Positions 6,308 through 48,720 of a stretch of 64,000 nt of DNA are shown one piece after another (the first letter of the stretch is position 1; each line of letters begins with the position of its first letter). The notes beneath the pieces were generated by a model that searched no databases, was not told the origin of the DNA, and worked only from the letters and a program-made list of their open reading frames with translations. Origin of the DNA: Psychromonas ingrahamii 37. Its GTDB lineage: Bacteria; Pseudomonadota; Gammaproteobacteria; Enterobacterales; Psychromonadaceae. A program made the position numbers and the translations under genes. The stretch covers positions 4,340,001-4,404,000 of the forward strand of contig NC_008709.1 of assembly GCF_000015285.1 (NCBI RefSeq), written 5' to 3'.

Positions 6308-6340
6308 GCAACGAAAACTAATCAATCGCTAGGAAAAAAG

Positions 6341-6684
6341 ATGAACTATCAAGCAGCAGTTTTTGACCGGGAACCGTTTATATTGTCATTCCAACGGCTC
6401 AAACTGATCAATCACTAGGAAAAAAGATGAACTATCAAGCAGCAGTTTTTGACCGGGAACCGTTTATATTGTCATTCCAACTGCTCAAACTAGTCAATCA
6501 CTAGGAAAAAAGATGAACTATCAAGCAGCAGTTTTTGACCGGGAACCGTTTATATTGTCATTCCAACTGCTTAAACTAATCAATCACTAGGAAAAAAGAT
6601 GAACTATCAAGCAGCAGTCTTTGACCGGGAACCGTTTATATTGTCATTCCAACTGCTTAAACTAATCAATCACTAGGAAAAAAG
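6341..6684 (+). repeat. Four exact-period 86-bp tandem repeats, each a 25-codon mini-ORF with its own RBS
   Basis: Copies start at the ATGs at 6341, 6427, 6513 and 6599, and the fifth start (6685) is the HAD gene itself. Each unit encodes a 25-residue peptide beginning MNYQAAVFDREPF, ends in TAG, then supplies AGGAAAAAAG and the next ATG. The first nine residues equal those of the HAD protein, so the unit is a duplicated promoter-proximal segment fused to older leader sequence. The units differ by only a few substitutions. Whether the peptides are made is unknown; if transcribed, all five starts have the same ribosome-binding site. Confidence 0.9.
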
Positions 6685-7353
6685 ATGAATTATCAAGCAG
6701 CAGTTTTTGATATGGACGGTTTATTATTGGATACCGAAAGAGTATGCCAAAAGGCATTTCAGGATGCCTGCCGTCACTTGTCGTTACCCATATTAAATGA
6801 GACTTATTTAAAAATAATCGGCACTAACGCCTTAAGTATCAAAAAGATTATTACCGCAGGTTATGGCCCTGAGCTTGATTATGAGAGTTTGCGCGTTGAG
6901 TGGATGAAACGTTACCATGCGGTGGTTGATTTCCAGGCCATTCCCGTTAAGGAGGGGGTCATTGCTTTACTCGACTGGTTACAAGAGCAGTCCATTCCGA
7001 TGGCGGTTGCCACCTCAAGCGAGAAGGACGTCGCATTAACTAAATTAAAATTATCTGGGTTAGAGGGGTATTTTCAGCAGTTAAGCACCGGATGTGAAGT
7101 CACTCACAGTAAACCTCACCCGGAGATATTTTTACTGGCGGCAAAACGCTTAAATACCGATCCCACGGCTTGTTTGGCTTTTGAAGACTCAAATCATGGT
7201 GTTCGGGCAGCCGTGAATGCTGGCATGCATGTTTTTCAGGTGCCGGATCTGGTTACTCCCTGCCCAGAAACGCTGGCTTTAGGGCATCAAGTTAAGCCTT
7301 CATTAAGTGATGTTTTGTCCCGTCTGCAAAATGCTCAGCAAGAAAATCAATAA
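6685..7353 (+). CDS. HAD-superfamily phosphatase (beta-phosphoglucomutase-like)
   Basis: 222 residues. HAD motif I is AVFDMDGLLLDTE (residues 6-18, nucleophile Asp9, acid Asp11). Motif II is AVATSSEKD (Ser/Thr, about 109), motif III is the lysine of HSKPHPEIF (about 142), and motif IV is AFEDSNHGVRAA (about 166). The helical cap lies between motifs I and II, as in the YniC/beta-PGM group of sugar-phosphate phosphatases. The exact substrate cannot be read from the sequence. The 3' end overlaps the convergent LysR gene by 62 nt. Its 5' end is the source of the tandem mini-ORFs upstream. Confidence 0.85.
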   Translation: MNYQAAVFDMDGLLLDTERVCQKAFQDACRHLSLPILNETYLKIIGTNALSIKKIITAGYGPELDYESLRVEWMKRYHAVVDFQAIPVKEGVIALLDWLQEQSIPMAVATSSEKDVALTKLKLSGLEGYFQQLSTGCEVTHSKPHPEIFLLAAKRLNTDPTACLAFEDSNHGVRAAVNAGMHVFQVPDLVTPCPETLALGHQVKPSLSDVLSRLQNAQQENQ

Positions 7354-8188
7354 GCAAACGAATTTTTGGGGATAAATAACGATTTTGCGGGTAAACCGCC
7401 CATATCCCCTCCTCAGCAACCCGGACATTGTTTAATAAAGAAATTAATTTGCCTGAATTAATATGCTCCTGCAGATAATAATCAGGCAGCTGAATAATAC
7501 CAATATTTTTCAGCGCAGCATCCACTAGCCCAAAGCCACTATTACAACGCAGATTCCCCCGCACACGAATATTTTTTTCTTTGCCCTGTTCAGTAAAATG
7601 CCAATAATCACGCGTGCCTAATAAACAATTGTGCTGCACTAATTCAGATAATGAGTGTGGTTCACCAAATTTTTTAAGGTACTCAGGTGATGCGCACACA
7701 AAATTTTCACGTGCCGCTAATTTTTTGGCGACTAAACTCGAATCCGGTAAGTCACCGAGGCGAATGGCTAAATCAAATCCGCCATCAACTAAATCAACGC
7801 GCTGATTAGTCAGCTCGCAGGTCACTTGGATCCTCTCATAACGGCACAAAAAATCGTTAATTAACGGCAGAATTTTTTGTTCTCCATAAGTAATAGGGGC
7901 TGAGAGTTTAATATGCCCCTGTGGTTTAGCCTGTAAACTGCTAATTGCCTGCTCCGCAGCTGCCAACCCCTCTAATACATTATGGCAATGCTGATAGAAA
8001 ATCTGCCCCTCTTGCGTCACTGAAACATGACGTGTAGTGCGGTAGAGCAGCCTGACATTCAACCTTTTTTCTAATGCGTTAATTTGTCTGCTGACCTGCG
8101 CGGTCGAAATCTTCAATTTTTTACCCGCCAGGGTAAAGCTGTGCATCTCTGCGACCGCAACAAACTCATTAATACCCTGCCATTGCAT
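7292..8188 (-). CDS. LysR-family transcriptional regulator
   Basis: 298 residues. The N-terminal winged helix has the typical FTLAGKKLKISTAQVSRQIN helix-turn-helix (about residues 18-37), followed by the linker helix and the substrate-binding domain. It is divergent from adhC-fghA across 175 bp, the arrangement of LysR activators next to formaldehyde detoxification genes in many gammaproteobacteria, so control of adhC is inferred. Its 3' end runs 62 nt into the HAD gene on the other strand. Confidence 0.9.
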   Translation of the reverse strand: MQWQGINEFVAVAEMHSFTLAGKKLKISTAQVSRQINALEKRLNVRLLYRTTRHVSVTQEGQIFYQHCHNVLEGLAAAEQAISSLQAKPQGHIKLSAPITYGEQKILPLINDFLCRYERIQVTCELTNQRVDLVDGGFDLAIRLGDLPDSSLVAKKLAARENFVCASPEYLKKFGEPHSLSELVQHNCLLGTRDYWHFTEQGKEKNIRVRGNLRCNSGFGLVDAALKNIGIIQLPDYYLQEHINSGKLISLLNNVRVAEEGIWAVYPQNRYLSPKIRLLIDFLAEHFADGTKHHLMKA

Positions 8189-10471: not shown

Positions 10472-10781
10472 ATACCAAAAGAATTAATGAAGTGATCAAT
10501 GATTGCGAAGGAAAAATAAGCACTAATAAGGCGTGAGTTGCATTCGATCGTTACTCTTCTTCACAAAATGGTATGGAACAATTTTGAACAGCTTTAGCTG
10601 GCCACAAAGTGGAGAAGAACAGGATGCTCTGAATACACAAAATAGTAGGGAACGATTTTGAACAGCTTCAGCTGGCGACGAAGTGGTGAAGAACGGGATG
10701 TTCTGAATAAAACCCACAACGCAGTTAGGGATGATTTTAACCAGCAAGGCTGATTATCTTTTTAGTTCTTTTGGTATTATT
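10472..10781. mobile_element. Non-autonomous MITE-like repeat element with 12-bp terminal inverted repeats
   Basis: The left end ATACCAAAAGAA (10472-10483) is the exact reverse complement of TTCTTTTGGTAT at the right end (10767-10778). Inside are three diverged tandem segments of 74-80 bp starting near 10575, 10649 and 10729, each with GGAACRATTTTGAACAGC-like sequence. A 74-codon reading frame on the minus strand has no family features. It fills the fghA-VOC spacer. No target-site duplication could be confirmed by eye. Confidence 0.6.
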
Positions 10782-25532: not shown

Positions 25533-26233
25533 AATCACCTATCATCAAGCGGGTATCAGAAACCCATGCCATGATTTATATCGGGGACACTATTGCCCCG
25601 GAACGGGCATCTCTAATTGGCTCTCTGTGCGAAAAAATTCACCTCGAGGTCGCTGATGGGATTATTGAGGTGGTGCCCTCTTATACCTCGATTATGATCG
25701 AATTCAATCTTTTAAAAATATCCTATGCAACTCTGGAAGCAAGCTTAATCGAGCTGCTTGGTAGTTTTGAACAAAAATCACAAAAAAGCCAGGCAAGAAT
25801 TATTGAACTGCCCGTTTATTACCACGCTGATGTGGCACCGGATTTACGGACGCTGGCTGAAGCGAAGAATTTATCTGTTCAGCAGGTTATCGATATTCAT
25901 TGCCAGACCCTTTATACCGTGTGCGCGATCGGCTTCTCTCCCGGTTTCGCCTTTCTTGGCAGCGTCGATGACCGTATTGTTATGCCCCGTCACGCCAGTC
26001 CGCGCCTGAAAATACCGGCAGGCAGTGTCGGTATTGCGGACCGGCAGACAGCCGTTTATCCCGATGATTCACCGGGTGGATGGCAGATTATTGGTAACTG
26101 CCCAAGCACCTTATTTAATCCAGAAAAGGAACCGATGATGCCGTTTTCTGTCGGTGACACGGTACGTTTTAAATCCGTATCACTAGAAGAGTTTACTCGG
26201 CAAGGAGGACAAACATGTCCAGACTGGAAGTAA
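25529..26233 (+). CDS. pxpB: 5-oxoprolinase subunit B (KipI-like)
   Basis: 234 residues. The N-terminal half carries VVPSYTSIMIEFN. The cyclophilin-like C-terminal domain has CAIGFSPGFAFLGSVDDRI and SVGIADRQTAVYPDDSPGGW, as in KipI/PxpB. Its last 30 codons, together with the following RBS and start, are duplicated downstream at a 110-bp period, leaving a decoy start 18 nt inside its own 3' end (26215). Confidence 0.92.
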   Translation: MKSPIIKRVSETHAMIYIGDTIAPERASLIGSLCEKIHLEVADGIIEVVPSYTSIMIEFNLLKISYATLEASLIELLGSFEQKSQKSQARIIELPVYYHADVAPDLRTLAEAKNLSVQQVIDIHCQTLYTVCAIGFSPGFAFLGSVDDRIVMPRHASPRLKIPAGSVGIADRQTAVYPDDSPGGWQIIGNCPSTLFNPEKEPMMPFSVGDTVRFKSVSLEEFTRQGGQTCPDWK

Positions 26234-26361
26234 TTCAGCCGGAAAGAGTGACGTTTTCTGTCGGTGACGCAGTACGTTTTAAGCAGGTATCACAACAAGA
26301 ATTTATTCAGCAAGGAGGAAAAATATGTCCAAACTGAAAGTAATTCAACCGGGAATGTTAT
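26142..26361 (+). repeat. 110-bp tandem duplication spanning the pxpB end and pxpC start
   Basis: The unit beginning GTTTTCTGTCGGTGAC occurs at 26142 and again at 26252, about 85 percent identical by eye. Each copy ends with AAGGAGG, an ATG (26215 and 26325) and GTAATTCA. The first ATG opens a 40-codon ORF (26215-26337): eight PxpC-like residues (MSRLEVIQ), then PxpB-tail residues (TFSVGDAVRFK), stopping just inside pxpC. Only the second ATG leads to full-length PxpC. Confidence 0.9.
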
Positions 26362-34405: not shown

Positions 34406-34963
34406 TTATTCTTTCGTAATTCCACCTTTCTCAGCTTCATTGAGCACGCTTTGTTGATCAACAAAAATCAGTTGATCCGTTGCAAAACCGTTTATTTTGG
34501 CGGTCTTTATAAAATCTTGTTTAACAGCTTCTGTTACCGTTGCTGTTCTTGCTAATAACCATAAATAATCTTTGCTGTAGCTTGTCACATAAGCATACTG
34601 GTAATTTATTTTATCTAGTTTAAAAATCACATAAGAGCCGTAAAACGGACCGAAAAATGATACTTTTAGGTGACCTTTGTTTTTCTCATCGACAAAATAG
34701 GCTTTTCCTTCAGCCGTTGTCCATTCTTTTTCTTCGCTTGAGTAACCACTATTTAAGACCTTTATCCCGCCATCTTCTCGCAATGAATATTCGGCCTTAA
34801 CATTCGACATCCCTCTTTCAAATGAGTGATCCAAACGGGCAATCTCATACCATAGACCTAAATATTTCTCAGTCTGCAGCCCTTCGACGGGTTTGATATC
34901 CTTTGCTACCCCGGTACAGCCAAACTGTAAAAAAGCAATCACAGCGATCAAAATTATACGCAT
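34406..34963 (-). CDS. blc: Outer-membrane lipoprotein lipocalin Blc
   Basis: 185 residues. Signal with lipobox LQFGCTG (Cys16), then the lipocalin start KYLGLWYEIARLDHSFERGM (GxW motif), the GYSSEEKEWTTAEGKAYF strand region, and a C-terminal YLWLLARTATVT strand with the conserved Arg. Bacterial lipocalins bind lysophospholipids or fatty acids at the outer membrane. The last residues (GGITKE) end at the neighbouring repeat element. Divergent from the DUF2860-type gene. Confidence 0.93.
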   Translation of the reverse strand: MRIILIAVIAFLQFGCTGVAKDIKPVEGLQTEKYLGLWYEIARLDHSFERGMSNVKAEYSLREDGGIKVLNSGYSSEEKEWTTAEGKAYFVDEKNKGHLKVSFFGPFYGSYVIFKLDKINYQYAYVTSYSKDYLWLLARTATVTEAVKQDFIKTAKINGFATDQLIFVDQQSVLNEAEKGGITKE

Positions 34964-35189
34964 CTTTATTTTCCCTAATAGTGAATTCTAAATTTAGCTT
35001 AAATGTAGTACGTTGCAGCAGAAAAATGCGATCACATTGTTGCACCAGAGTATCCTATACTGTCTTTAGAAAAATTAATGCCAGCTGTAGAATCCGCAAT
35101 GATATGATCTGCACCACTTCAGGCTTCGTATCACTCTTTTAATATTGGCGGTTTTCCGTCTTAGGTTATCTCATTCAAGGAAGAAAATA

Positions 35190-36212
35190 ATGCGTAAATT
35201 GTTACCGGTTGTCATATCAAGTATTTTGTTAAGCAATTTTCTGGCCGCTGAGGTCGCCGCAAATTCAGCACCAGCGGTACAACCACTTGCTGAGAAAGCG
35301 GGCTGGGAGTTCACTCTGGGCATCAATTTAGGTTACAGCGCTGGTCGCTCACAATTAAATACCAATAATGATAACGCAGTCAATGAGAATCTTAACAATA
35401 ACGGTCAGGCTATCAGTAAGCCATTTATATTTCCCACAGCCCGCGCACAGTATACTTTTACAGAATTAAAAACGCAGATATTTGCAGGGGACAGCCGCGA
35501 AAAAATTTCGACAGCCAAGTTTCAATATGAACTGGGGATCACCCACTTATTTAATAACAGCAGCGAAATGACGGTCGCTTATTTTCCGCAAATGCTATCT
35601 TTCAATGATGCCTGGCAGGATCCCTATTTAACCGGCAGTACACGAACAACAACGGACGAAAATGCGCAGGGCGGGCGATTTGCTTTAACCCGCATTGCAG
35701 GCAGTACAATTACCCTTAAATATGCCTTTGCCTTTACAGCGATAGAAAATGAACACAGCGGACAAAGTTTAGGATTGAATGCTAAGCAGTTGACCATGCT
35801 ACAGCGTGACAGCTTGTATCAGCGCGCTGAAATAGAAACCATGTATTCGATCGCACCCGGCATATTTTTCAAACCCGCACTGCAATACACAACAAGGTCT
35901 GCCGATGGTGAAGCACATAACTTTGATCAATATGGACTGCAGTTAAGCCTTCTGGTTTTTAAAGGCAGACACAGCTTAATTACTACCCTCAATACCGGCA
36001 TTAAAAAGTTTGCCGTTGAAAATCCGGCTTTTAATGAAAAACAGAATACCGTGAATGCAGGACTCTTTTCTGTTTATAGCTATGACCAGGCGCTTAACTG
36101 GCAACCATTAAGTTTTAATCTACTGGCCGGTTACACAAAAGAAGACTCTGATATCAATTTTTACGATAGCGAAGGTTTCTTTACGTCGACCGGCATCACC
36201 TATCAGTTTTAA
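35190..36212 (+). CDS. DUF2860-type outer-membrane beta-barrel protein
   Basis: 340 residues from the ATG at 35190 (MRKLLPVVISSILLSNFLAA), with AAGGAAG before it; 15 earlier codons are rejected because the signal peptide starts here. After the signal, alternating strands (KAGWEFTLGINLGYSAGRS, FPTARAQYTFTELKTQIFAG) and the terminal GITYQF with C-terminal Phe mark an outer-membrane barrel. It resembles the DUF2860 proteins common in Vibrio, of unknown role. Its final 94 bp are repeated six more times downstream. Confidence 0.75.
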   Translation: MRKLLPVVISSILLSNFLAAEVAANSAPAVQPLAEKAGWEFTLGINLGYSAGRSQLNTNNDNAVNENLNNNGQAISKPFIFPTARAQYTFTELKTQIFAGDSREKISTAKFQYELGITHLFNNSSEMTVAYFPQMLSFNDAWQDPYLTGSTRTTTDENAQGGRFALTRIAGSTITLKYAFAFTAIENEHSGQSLGLNAKQLTMLQRDSLYQRAEIETMYSIAPGIFFKPALQYTTRSADGEAHNFDQYGLQLSLLVFKGRHSLITTLNTGIKKFAVENPAFNEKQNTVNAGLFSVYSYDQALNWQPLSFNLLAGYTKEDSDINFYDSEGFFTSTGITYQF

Positions 36213-36777
36213 TCTACTGGCCGGTTACACAAAAGAAGACTCTGATATCAATTTTTACGATAGCGAAGGTTTCTTTACGTCGACCGGCATCACCTATCAG
36301 TTTTAATCTACTGGCGGGTTACAAAAAAAAGGACTCTGATATCGACTTTTACGATACTAAAGGTTTCTTTATGTCGACCGGCATCACCTATCAGTTTTAA
36401 TCTACTGGCGGGTTACAAAAAAAAGGACTCTGATATCGACTTTTACGATACTAAAGGTTTCTTTATGTCGACCGGCATCACCTATCAGTTTTAATGTACT
36501 GGCGGGTTACACAAAAGAAGACTCTGATATCGACTTTTACGATAGCGAAGGTTTATTTACATCGACCGGCATAACCTATCAGTTTTAATATACTGGCGGG
36601 TTACACAAAAGAAGACTCTGATATCGACTTTTACGATAGCGAAGGTTTATTTACGTCGACCGGCATCACCTATCAGTTTTAATATACTGGTGGGTTACAA
36701 AAAAGAGGGCTCTGATATCGACTTTTACGATACTAAGGGTTTATTTATATCGACCGGTTTAAGCTATCAATTTTAAT
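36120..36777 (+). repeat. Seven 94-bp tandem copies of an outer-membrane protein 3' end
   Basis: Unit starts at 36120 (inside the gene), 36214, 36308, 36402, 36496, 36590 and 36684, always exactly 94 bp apart. Each unit could encode about 30 residues starting LLAGYTKEDSD and ending STGITYQF plus TAA in its own frame, but none of the downstream six has an in-frame start. Copies 1 and 2 are identical; later copies differ (LAGYKKKDSDIDFYDTKG, STGLSYQF in the last). This array fills the 675-bp spacer to flgA; the final 110 bp (36778-36887) show nothing. Confidence 0.95.
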
Positions 36778-36887
36778 CTATTACGGCGCTGATATCTTAT
36801 AGAAGCCGAGTGTCTAACAGCTCTAAAATGATTATTGCTGTTGATTTGTAACTTTCTCAAAAATTAATCGGCAAAGATAATCAGGTT

Positions 36888-37592
36888 CTATTTGGACTCA
36901 ACGGACACTTTATTTTTGCCGATCACCGTGGTGGTAATAATATTACCCGAACGTTTATTTTTGACCTTGATTAAATCACCAAGCTGGCCTGATTTAAGCG
37001 CGATACCAAGGGTACTCAAAGAAAAAGAATCCTGCTTGAATATAATGCTCACTTCAGATTTTCGTATTACCGCATATTCTATGATTATATCTTTCTTTTT
37101 TATAATGCTGCCTGCACGTAATTTGCGTTTTGTTTTTTTCCCCGCAAGACCGGCAACATTCGGATAATAATCATTATTTCTTATTCTCTGTTCACGAAAG
37201 ACAATATCCTCAGGCTGCAGGGAATGCCCACGGGGTAATGATGAAGCAGTGGTAGCAACCGCCATATAATAATTAATATTGGCGACAATATTGACTGACC
37301 ATTTGTGTTGCTTAACCGTATTATCACATGTCACTTTATAGCTGACGCGGTTAATAGCATTAGCTGCCGCCAGACTAATAATGACAGGCGACAAACAATC
37401 CTCAAGTTTTTTTAATGATGGCGGAATACGCAGCGTACTGCTGTAACGGTATTCCTGCCAATCCATTTTCCGGGCAAACGTAGCGCTGTCGGTATTGATC
37501 TGTTTTTTTACAATAGTCGTGAGCTGCGAAACTTCAAGGGCCGAAGAATAACTCGCTAAAAAGGCTAAAAGCAGAATTAAAATTCGTCTCAC
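36888..37592 (-). CDS. flgA: Flagellar P-ring assembly chaperone FlgA (lateral system)
   Basis: 234 residues. Signal peptide from the GTG start (MRRILILLLAFLASYSSALE). A SAF/BON-like C-terminal domain with LPRGHSLQPEDIVFREQRIR, RKLRAGSIIKKKDI and ALKSGQLGDLIKVKNKRSGN is the FlgA pattern. It guides FlgI into the periplasmic P ring. GTGA overlaps the stop of the preceding flagellin-like gene by 4 nt, so it is translationally coupled to the ParM-containing segment; flgA is more usually placed before flgB. Confidence 0.88.
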   Translation of the reverse strand: MRRILILLLAFLASYSSALEVSQLTTIVKKQINTDSATFARKMDWQEYRYSSTLRIPPSLKKLEDCLSPVIISLAAANAINRVSYKVTCDNTVKQHKWSVNIVANINYYMAVATTASSLPRGHSLQPEDIVFREQRIRNNDYYPNVAGLAGKKTKRKLRAGSIIKKKDIIIEYAVIRKSEVSIIFKQDSFSLSTLGIALKSGQLGDLIKVKNKRSGNIITTTVIGKNKVSVESK

Positions 37593-46366: not shown

Positions 46367-47253
46367 AACTGCTTAAACAATGATAAGGAACTTATCTGTG
46401 CAAATGTTTTCTGGGTTGCTTCCAATGCGCTCATAAAATCATTCAATTTCAGACTCGCTTCATCGTAGCTTAATGCCGTAAGCTGATCGACGAGTTTTGT
46501 TGCAAACAGTTCTGTATCACTGTGTGTCGCGAGCATACGATCAATATTATTAATTTGACTACCGGCATAGGCCTGAGAGGAAGAAGCTTTATTAAGTGAA
46601 ATAAGGCTATTATTATGCGCCTCCTGCAGCTTGCTTAGATTGGGATCAGCTTTACTTAATTCAGTGATAGAAGTCTCCAACATCACTAATATTGCAGCTG
46701 CATCTACCTTTTCCAGTGTCAGGTTATTCTGCATCATAATACCGTCGCCAATCGCCGTTTCCCGGGTGTTGTTATTAATCGCCGGGTTAGCTGTTACAAC
46801 GCCCTCAGTGATGTTAAAAGGTTTTTGATCTGTTGCCGTACCGGAAAAAAGGTAAGAGCCATGACTATTTTTAGCATTAAAGGTGCTCACCATGGATGCA
46901 TGAAGCGACTCAAGTTCGGTCACAATACCCGCGCGATCTTCGAGCGTCATGGTGCCGTTAAGCCCCCATAGCAATAATTCATTAGTCGACTGCAGGCCTT
47001 CAACAACATTTGCTATATGTGTTTCATAAAGCTGGTATCCACTTTTCACATTTTCGTTATTATCTTTATATTGGCTTATTTCCGCTTGAGTTTTCTCTAA
47101 CCCCATCAGTTTAATGGTGGCAATAGGATCATCTGAAGGTTTGGTTATTTTTTCACCCGTATACATCTGCTGCAGTAATGTACTCAGCTCGGTATTGCTT
47201 TTGCTCATGCCCGTGAGCATAGTATTGGTAAAGTGTGAATCTGAAATTCGCAT
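46363..47253 (-). CDS. flgL: Hook-filament junction protein FlgL (lateral system)
   Basis: 296 residues with flagellin-like ends: start MRISDSHFTNTMLTGMSKSN, YTGEKITKPSDDPIATIKLM near residue 35, and the C-terminal helix. Family length is about 300. Its 5' end with the RBS TTGGAG is duplicated 88 bp upstream as a truncated decoy ORF. Followed by a 4-nt overlap with the MotY-like gene. Confidence 0.88.
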   Translation of the reverse strand: MRISDSHFTNTMLTGMSKSNTELSTLLQQMYTGEKITKPSDDPIATIKLMGLEKTQAEISQYKDNNENVKSGYQLYETHIANVVEGLQSTNELLLWGLNGTMTLEDRAGIVTELESLHASMVSTFNAKNSHGSYLFSGTATDQKPFNITEGVVTANPAINNNTRETAIGDGIMMQNNLTLEKVDAAAILVMLETSITELSKADPNLSKLQEAHNNSLISLNKASSSQAYAGSQINNIDRMLATHSDTELFATKLVDQLTALSYDEASLKLNDFMSALEATQKTFAQISSLSLFKQL

Positions 47254-47358
47254 ATTAAAACTCCAAGTTAAACCGCAGTAATAATACTGATAATCATTCG
47301 ATTAGCATGTTATTGGTACAGTATGAATCTGATACTCGCATATTAAAATTCTCAGTTA
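47223..47358 (-). repeat. 88-bp tandem duplication of the flgL 5' end
   Basis: The 48-bp block covering RBS, start and first codons of flgL (47223-47270) recurs at 47311-47358. In the upstream copy the ATG at 47341 opens a 15-codon ORF to 47294 (MRVSDSYCTNNMLIE) mirroring the FlgL start MRISDSHFTNTML. Differences are single substitutions. It fills the flgK-flgL spacer, which other lateral clusters keep short. Confidence 0.85.
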
Positions 47359-48720
47359 AAAAGCGCGAAGAATACTATTAAACATCTGATTTGCAGTGCT
47401 GATAACTTTCATATTTGCTTCATAAGCATTGGCATAGATCATTAAATTAGCAGCTTCTTCATCACTGTTAACCCCACTTAGATTTTCTCTTGATGCCTGC
47501 ACCTGATTAAACAAGGCGGTATTAGAATCTAAATTTTGCTGTGCTTGCCGGCTGTCAATGGCAATCTTGCCAACGCTTAAACTAAAAGCTTCCGAAAGAT
47601 TAATATTACCCGCCCCTGTGATAGAAAAATCAGTTTTTGAAATATCAAGCAGATTTGCCAGTATTTGACCATCACCTGGATTACCATCACCTGAAAACGC
47701 TAATTCATCCGTCGACAATAAGTTCATTTGCATACTGCCTGCCGGATTAGCAGGATCGTAGGAAAAAAGAGCCAGACCGGGTGAAAGTCCGTTAAGATCG
47801 GTACCACTCGCTAAGCTTTTATTAACCTCATCGGCAACAATAACAGCCATCTCGTTAATCGTATTGTGCAGCGCTGCCAGATCTTTTTTCTGTGTCTTGT
47901 CGATTGCTCCCAACTCCCCACCGAGATCGCTCGAGACATTGAAAGTAGAACCGTTGAAAGTAGCATTGATAATCGCCTGATAAGGATCAGAAGGTAATGG
48001 AGTCGTTGTAAACTCTGCCGCTTTATCATTAATAAGCAGTGGTTGACCATTGTTCGTTGATAGTTGCAATTCACCATTTTCTTCTTTATTTACATTAACC
48101 TTTATCAGCTGTGATAATTCATTTAGCATCTGATCGCGGTTATCTTCAAGCGTTGCAGTATTTCCGCCAACATTATAAACTTCCATAATAGCTTTGCTGC
48201 TTTGAGCAAGGTTATCAAGCAGTCCATTGACCATAGAAAGGTTATTTTCTCTGTCGCTCGCTAACTGCGCATTCTGATTGCTCAGTGTCTGGCTCAACCC
48301 TTTAAAACGCTGAGCAAGTGCCTGTGCATCAGATAAAACCTGCTGACGAAACTCGACGGATTCCGGCGCAACACTCGCTTCACTGATACTGCTAAAAAAC
48401 TGATCCATTCCAGCTGAAAGATTAAATCCGTCCAACCCGACAATCTGTTCCAGCTGGCCAAGGCTTGACGCACTGTAGCTACTGTTACCCAGTTCGGTAT
48501 TGCTGCTGCGCAGCTGAGAAATAATAAATTGATCTGCCATACGGCGGATACTTGAAACCTCCACACCAGCCCCGACATCATTAGAGCGAGTAATACTGCT
48601 TTGTACTGCCTGCTGACGAGAATGACCCGCAGTATTTGCATTTGCTATATTTTGAGCCGTTATATTTAAAGCTGTACGGTTTGCGCTTACCCCTGATAGG
48701 GCAATATTATATATACTCAT
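47356..48720 (-). CDS. flgK: Hook-filament junction protein FlgK (lateral system)
   Basis: 454 residues. Start MSIYNIALSGVSANRTALNI and NIANANTAGHSRQQAVQSSI are typical rod/hook-family D0 sequences. The C-terminus SGVNSDEEAANLMIYANAYE completes the pair. HAP1, first junction protein on the hook. Eighteen nt after flgJ. Confidence 0.93.
   Translation of the reverse strand: MSIYNIALSGVSANRTALNITAQNIANANTAGHSRQQAVQSSITRSNDVGAGVEVSSIRRMADQFIISQLRSSNTELGNSSYSASSLGQLEQIVGLDGFNLSAGMDQFFSSISEASVAPESVEFRQQVLSDAQALAQRFKGLSQTLSNQNAQLASDRENNLSMVNGLLDNLAQSSKAIMEVYNVGGNTATLEDNRDQMLNELSQLIKVNVNKEENGELQLSTNNGQPLLINDKAAEFTTTPLPSDPYQAIINATFNGSTFNVSSDLGGELGAIDKTQKKDLAALHNTINEMAVIVADEVNKSLASGTDLNGLSPGLALFSYDPANPAGSMQMNLLSTDELAFSGDGNPGDGQILANLLDISKTDFSITGAGNINLSEAFSLSVGKIAIDSRQAQQNLDSNTALFNQVQASRENLSGVNSDEEAANLMIYANAYEANMKVISTANQMFNSILRAF

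Follow-up and report, generated by a model that had tools for sequence, protein, structure and literature searches.

Sevenfold copying of the 3' end of a DUF2860 gene in Psychromonas ingrahamii is most likely a harmless copying accident rather than a device for cell-surface variation

How did the 3' end of an outer-membrane protein gene come to stand seven times in a row in the chromosome of Psychromonas ingrahamii 37? The question arises from a stretch of 64,000 nucleotides (contig NC_008709.1, positions 4,340,001 to 4,404,000 of the forward strand), referred to here as the window and used for numbering unless stated otherwise. An initial annotation had described seven copies of a 94-bp unit with exact spacing, each carrying the end of the gene and a stop codon, and had taken them for silent cassettes for surface variation. 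The spacing was borne out by TRF, which reported 7.1 head-to-tail copies with a period of 94 bp at 36111-36780 (93% matches, 0% indels, score 1044). With its length of 670 bp, an array of 94-bp units is far beyond chance. The gene was assigned to the DUF2860 family with an E value of 7.5e-109 to PF11059 over residues 38-339, scoring 363.9 bits against a curated cut-off of 22.9. The elements of the locus, with copies 1 to 7 abbreviated as c1 to c7, are the following:

35190-36212, forward strand: intact gene of the DUF2860 (PF11059) outer-membrane beta-barrel family, 340 amino acids plus TAA, its end lying inside the first repeat junction
36111-36204, forward strand: copy 1, the expressed 3' end of the DUF2860 gene from codon 308 (TRF)
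36205-36298, forward strand: copy 2, same sequence as copy 1 (copy alignment)
36299-36486, forward strand: copies 3 and 4, mutually identical, a mix of c7-like and c1-like states (copy alignment; incompatible site pairs)
36487-36674, forward strand: copies 5 and 6, with 3 differences between them (copy alignment)
36675-36768, forward strand: copy 7, farthest from c1 with 19 differences (copy alignment)
36113-36122, forward strand: left copy of TTTTAATCTA, a short direct repeat at the array edge and putative duplication microhomology
36771-36780, forward strand: right copy of TTTTAATCTA, followed by unique sequence

Column 1 of the unit coincides with the start of codon 308 of the gene. When extended by 8 bases into the following copy, every copy encodes, each in its own phase, the last 33 residues and TAA, so that the claim of a gene end and stop in every copy was confirmed as well. 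All copies have the pattern S-F-N-x-L-(A/V)-G-Y...Y-Q-F in common, and both loop forms quoted in the initial annotation, EDSDINFYDSEG and DSDIDFYDTKG, were found in the array. Because 94 is not divisible by 3, successive copies shift frame, with c4 and c7 back in the frame of the gene itself. All of c2-c7 lie downstream of the first stop. Among the aligned copies, 20 of the 94 columns are variable, with c1 identical to c2 and c3 identical to c4.

The array consists of head-to-tail repeats of tens of base pairs with a near-constant period, as is characteristic of minisatellites and VNTRs. As far as the available portion of the source describes them, the MIRU-VNTR loci of Mycobacterium tuberculosis likewise have head-to-tail units of similar length at gene boundaries with intact flanking genes, and a locus can be found in one lineage only (PMC2734929). 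The same portion gives MIRUs as 40-100 bp long and scattered over 41 places of one chromosome, their copy number varying between isolates, and links the repeat length upstream of fpg1 to the level of fpg1 mRNA (PMC2734929); a link of that kind is not known for the 94-bp array. Unlike the dispersed MIRUs, which place one unit at many loci, the 94-bp unit is private to a single locus and represents the gene's own 3' end. Searches of the whole genome (4,559,598 bp, one contig) with the unit DNA, matching 6 of the 7 copies, and with the tail peptide, matching 7/7, gave no match outside the array locus.

Copies c2-c7 are also promoterless partial copies sharing their ends with one expressed gene, the arrangement known from silent cassettes; in a scan restricted to consensus matches, 5 promoter-like sites were present in 34900-37000 versus 5.3 in shuffles, none of them inside the array. 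In this respect the locus resembles pilE/pilS, vlsE and tprK, where one expressed gene is accompanied by promoterless partial copies able to recombine. In those systems the exposed regions are hypervariable, and replacement of alleles has been demonstrated. The locus also resembles orphan CdiA-CT modules, Rhs tips and MafB cassettes, in which gene 3' ends are aligned downstream and recombination swaps the C-terminus. There the modules differ strongly from one another, are far longer and come with immunity genes. In contrast, the units described here are 94 bp long, up to 20% different and without a partner gene, and unlike in pilE/pilS, vlsE and tprK, the loop core is conserved in the DUF2860 family and the copies differ at no more than 19 of 94 bases.

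Could recombination nevertheless carry different versions of the last loop from the downstream copies into the expressed gene, with selection of the variants? The geometry of the array would permit it: a deletion between c1 and any later copy leaves an intact 340-amino-acid protein with the tail of that copy, as had been proposed. The proposed swapping of tails stands for c3-c7, each of which would bring in a different tail, and fails for c2, which is identical to c1. The identity of c1 with c2 and of c3 with c4 points to duplication or conversion in the recent past. Furthermore, 18 pairs of sites show all four combinations of states among the five distinct copies, all of them between columns {26, 33, 59, 60, 61, 74} and columns {69, 75, 87}. 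These incompatible patterns, also taken as support for silent cassettes, suggest past exchange among the copies or recurrent change, and because of them c3 and c4 have the appearance of mosaics that may have formed in either way. In the accessible text of the respective papers, OMPdb includes the DUF2860 family among outer-membrane barrels, with Cj0561c as its sole characterised member (PMC9581022), and a DUF2860 protein is one of the candidate antigens that a reverse-vaccinology screen proposed for Aeromonas (PMC10383140).

The variability of the tail itself argues against such a role. Across 20 loci, the core at residues 319-327 (DSDINFYDS) has a mean entropy of 1.05 versus 1.52 overall, and just 4.6% of equal-length windows are more conserved, which places it above about 95% of them. 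For the wider loop 316-329 this value is 39%, and for the whole tail 308-340 it is 46%. Since the wider loop and the tail are average and core 319-327 is strongly conserved, the segment is not hypervariable. The expressed tail has also not evolved faster than the rest of the gene. Compared with the orthologue of Psychromonas sp. MB-3u-54, the tail gives a pN of 0.069 and a pS of 0.179 (ratio 0.39), the gene body a pS of 0.287 and a ratio of 0.33, and no excess of amino-acid change in the tail was detected (Fisher p=0.69, rounded counts). Nor are the variable columns concentrated in the loop, which holds 10 of the 20 within its 42 of 94 columns (p=0.66). General barrel topology would have this loop face the outside; a search for a solved structural relative of the DUF2860 protein returned an unrelated chain at best (E 0.43). 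With its family conservation and loop column counts, the tail lacks the profile of a hypervariable exposed donor region, and a silent-cassette system for surface variation is quite improbable here.

The differences among the copies allow some inspection of their history. One proposal is that each duplication of the tail pushes an older version downstream, so that the copies represent past states of the gene restorable by deletion. It agrees with the identity of c1 and c2, with c7 being farthest from c1 and with a pN/pS of the copies resembling that of the expressed gene. However, the distance from c1 is not monotone along the array (10 for c3/c4, 7 for c5, 5 for c6 and 19 for c7). Moreover, c1 and c2 are nearest to the MB-3u-54 orthologue, with 8 differences each, whereas c3-c7 have states in common at columns 18, 46 and 48 that are absent from c1, c2 and this outgroup. 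An ordered record of past gene ends is therefore rather unlikely, and it would in any case be compatible with a minisatellite origin as a special form of it without a specialised role.

Of the 21 changes among copies, 8 are counted as synonymous; the number could be 6, since the changes at columns 75 and 87 are silent in one copy but alter the protein in another. Under neutrality a share of 0.21-0.33 is expected, the value varying with the assumed mutation bias, and the excess, which would have favoured an ordered record, is not significant (P 0.06-0.38 for 8 changes). The pN/pS ratio lies between 0.13 and 0.60 in 9 of the 10 pairs of distinct copies, with the c3-c6 pair left out, and is 0.33 in the gene body. 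Neutral decay of the copies, which the initial annotation had named as evidence against its own proposal, is not rejected, although the synonymous share and pN/pS lean to constraint. Counting against a minisatellite without function, low pN/pS would fit copies that were once expressed or selected as protein, at numbers too small to reject neutrality. On the same side, the open frame and stop are kept in 6/6 spare copies; the simulated chance of a single copy keeping both is 0.77, 0.60 and 0.41 at 5, 10 and 19 changes, respectively.

A more far-reaching idea is that of a working reservoir, in which deletion, duplication and conversion within the array would from time to time change the expressed C-terminal beta-hairpin, and the arrays at other gene ends would act alike. 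If this were true, the copies would be marked by selection at the protein level, each having been or becoming again the expressed end, and the arrays would amount to a general way to shuffle protein termini. We consider such a reservoir distinctly unlikely.

The array is confined to P. ingrahamii among the homologues compared. A search for DUF2860 proteins gave matches in 20 of 41 genomes; besides the array copies there were 24 gene matches, of which 20 were fetched, the one of the window included. In all 19 other fetched homologues the array is absent, with a best downstream tail match of 36-45 of 99 bases versus 94 of 99 here, which again speaks against silent cassettes. The nearest relative with the gene, Psychromonas sp. 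MB-3u-54, is 81% identical and has no array. A tail search within the genus yielded a match in 16 of 24 genomes, and several matches at one locus were present only in the genome of the window. The array may thus be young or lineage-specific, with the caution that many relatives are represented by draft genomes, in which tandem repeats can be collapsed. A literature search did not retrieve an account of gene-end arrays in Psychromonas, which is no proof of their absence; what was available of the P. ingrahamii genome paper does not use the word tandem, and its passages on repeats and duplications are not about such arrays (PMC2405808).

The right end of the array coincides with a break in synteny, as it adjoins the left edge of a segment of about 37 kb that runs to about genome position 4413709. 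The part of it within the window is:

36781-64000, no strand assigned: left part of the ~37-kb segment, by reading largely flagellar genes, absent at this place in MB-3u-54

In MB-3u-54, 188 bp separate the stop of the DUF2860 gene from the start of acs, and the preceding genes have the same order as here. The acs orthologue of P. ingrahamii is found at genome position 4413794 and is 94% identical to that of MB-3u-54.

This raises the question of whether the ~37-kb segment that starts right after the array has its attachment site in the repeated gene end. The displacement of acs from 188 bp to about 37 kb downstream would fit such an event, as would the right part of the MB-3u-54 spacer, which matches the far edge at 4413710-4413842 (96%), and the first gene of the segment (flgA-like), for which no match was found in the MB-3u-54 draft genome. 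However, a 19-base tail pattern searched with up to 3 mismatches gave 12 matches, none near 4413710, and the unit had no match there either. None of the 19 PF00589 matches of the genome falls within the segment, and the window contains no tRNA (the scan extended to the window's end, 9.7 kb short of the end of the segment). A sevenfold array is not the usual look of attachment sites. Given the lack of a PF00589 match, a tRNA in the window and a tail copy at the far edge, an origin as attachment site is not supported, and the array being an integration scar is very unlikely.

The units might also act as RNA, folding as hairpins in the 3' untranslated region. Folding energies of c1 and c2 point in this direction with a z of -2.27, whereas the values are weaker for c4 (-0.60), c6 (+0.42) and c7 (-1.64), c5 being left out. 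In addition, a group of 20 array units from this genome showed no stronger folding than 150 random segments (Mann-Whitney p=0.17). A role as RNA element is extremely improbable, and in view of this group comparison the idea that hairpins stimulate slippage was dropped as well.

The window holds four further arrays with units of 74-110 bp, and 3 of these touch or cross the end of a gene. The first (6315-6710; 86 bp x 4.6) lies before and extends into a HAD-family gene. It forms four tandem mini-ORFs of 25 codons (MNYQAAVFDREPFILSFQ...NH*) that repeat the N-terminus of this gene; AGGAAAAAAG stands ahead of each ATG, as at the real gene, and every TAG stop overlaps the AGGA of the next unit. A 110-bp x 1.9 array (26142-26352) bridges two adjoining genes for carboxyltransferase subunits (PF02682, PF02626), and a diverged 88-bp x 1.8 repeat (47216-47376, 79%) spans the flgL start and the flgK end. 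The fourth, a 74-bp x 2.0 repeat (10562-10709, 87%), is intergenic and follows an esterase gene.

To place these arrays in the context of the genome, 40 spread 20-kb stretches were analysed together with the window (864 kb; units of at least 45 bp; 5 CRISPR rows excluded). Of 24 non-CRISPR arrays, 12 lie across gene ends, 10 are intergenic and 2 are inside genes. The open-frame rule had dropped the HAD-family gene (6685-7353) for its 62-base overlap with 7292-8188, which made the array of this gene intergenic in the count; under a looser rule the gene is restored and the numbers become 13 boundary and 9 intergenic arrays, with none of 25 other arrays checked moving. Random placement of the same unit lengths predicts 72% inside genes, 14% at boundaries and 14% intergenic. 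The 2 of 24 arrays observed inside genes are far fewer than this (P=9.5e-11), and outside genes the boundary share of 12/22 compares with 49% predicted (p=0.67). Placement as seen fits random duplication followed by removal of gene-breaking copies.

One of the boundary arrays in the sampled stretches can serve as an example:

L044, 16055-16962: 302-bp x 3.0 array, 96% alike, at the junction of a gene for a chorismate-binding enzyme and a MenD-like gene

Further boundary arrays are found at the genes for MlaE (88 bp x 2.9), BacA/UppP (46 bp x 4.2) and TauE (139 bp x 5), at FAD monooxygenase (ubi-type), hybrid kinase and sigma-54 response regulator genes, and at those for a ketoacyl-synthase-domain protein, FlgK/FlgL and the two carboxyltransferase subunits. 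Going by Pfam names, 10 of the 12 boundary arrays would be without an outer-surface product, the exceptions being DUF2860 and flgK/flgL. Comparable arrays at the ends of genes of cytoplasmic or inner-membrane families stand against silent cassettes, and the surface-variation role proposed for this locus found no backing on this side either.

For comparison, 400 kb each of five relatives (2 Mb) were sampled, in which 2, 1, 1, 1 and 1 boundary arrays were found (G010, G019, G022, G028 and G032, respectively). The 800-kb sample of the genome of the window, with the chosen window left out, contains 9 boundary arrays versus these 6 in 2 Mb, i.e., a 3.75-fold higher density (one-sided p=0.011). Boundary and intergenic arrays together amount to 17 in 800 kb versus 22 in 2 Mb (p=0.032). 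In the relatives, 10 of 32 arrays are inside genes, and 6 of the remaining 22 are at boundaries, a lower share than in the genome of the window. Provisionally, this genome has more gene-end arrays than its relatives; the enrichment is provisional because of the simple open-frame gene rule, the post hoc comparison and the small number of genomes (five), and because 2 of the 6 control boundary arrays touch only frames of 90-109 codons. As a cause of many arrays, loss of a repeat-stabilising function was considered and rejected, there being no obvious loss among MutS, RecJ, ExoI and SbcC. MutS, RecJ and ExoI score above cut-off in 7/7 genomes searched, that of the window included; SbcC-like long frames are present in 7/7 and above cut-off in 1/7, which is not the genome of the window.

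Taken together, the array is very probably a locus-specific minisatellite that arose from the gene's own 3' end and for which no function need be assumed. The observation was correct and the phenomenon is an ordinary one; a function is not supported. According to this minisatellite explanation, a 94-bp segment with the 3' end and stop of the DUF2860 gene would have been tandemly duplicated between short direct repeats, either TTTTAATCTA or a shorter precursor, and the array would have grown through slippage during replication or through unequal crossover, the copies now and then exchanging sequence. The anatomy of the array, its restriction to one lineage among the genomes searched, the conserved core of the loop, the recurrence of such arrays at non-surface genes and their placement within this genome are observed, whereas slippage as mechanism, neutrality and copy-number instability are what we infer. 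The two places of MB-3u-54 that match the TTTTAATCTA sites have only TTTTA in common. Duplication between short direct repeats would be the natural reading of these edges, though not a proven one, as the duplication may itself have produced the second copy of TTTTAATCTA. More generally, short tandem duplications may arise genome-wide, with those that break genes being removed and the survivors lying between genes or across gene ends. The array can persist at little cost because copy 1 completes the gene and c2-c7 come only after its stop codon. With a stop codon within the unit, the array is harmless and therefore an expected leftover of random duplication and selection. A limit on the minisatellite explanation is that the placement model fitting this genome is not shown to hold in the five relatives.

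The locus cautions against taking tandem repeats at the 3' ends of surface genes for antigenic-variation loci in every case. A genome with provisionally more gene-end arrays suits the study of how short tandem duplications originate and survive in bacteria.

The sampled stretches contained two minor features besides. A CRISPR-like array with the repeat GTGTTCCCCGTGCCCACGGGGATGAACCG and a period of about 61 is located at L029, 8729-10837. Three intergenic tandem arrays (L033, 3844-4076; L034, 3278-3646; L035, 17800-18222) have a GGTGCAT...AATGCACCCTACC-like motif in common, which perhaps represents a dispersed palindromic repeat family.
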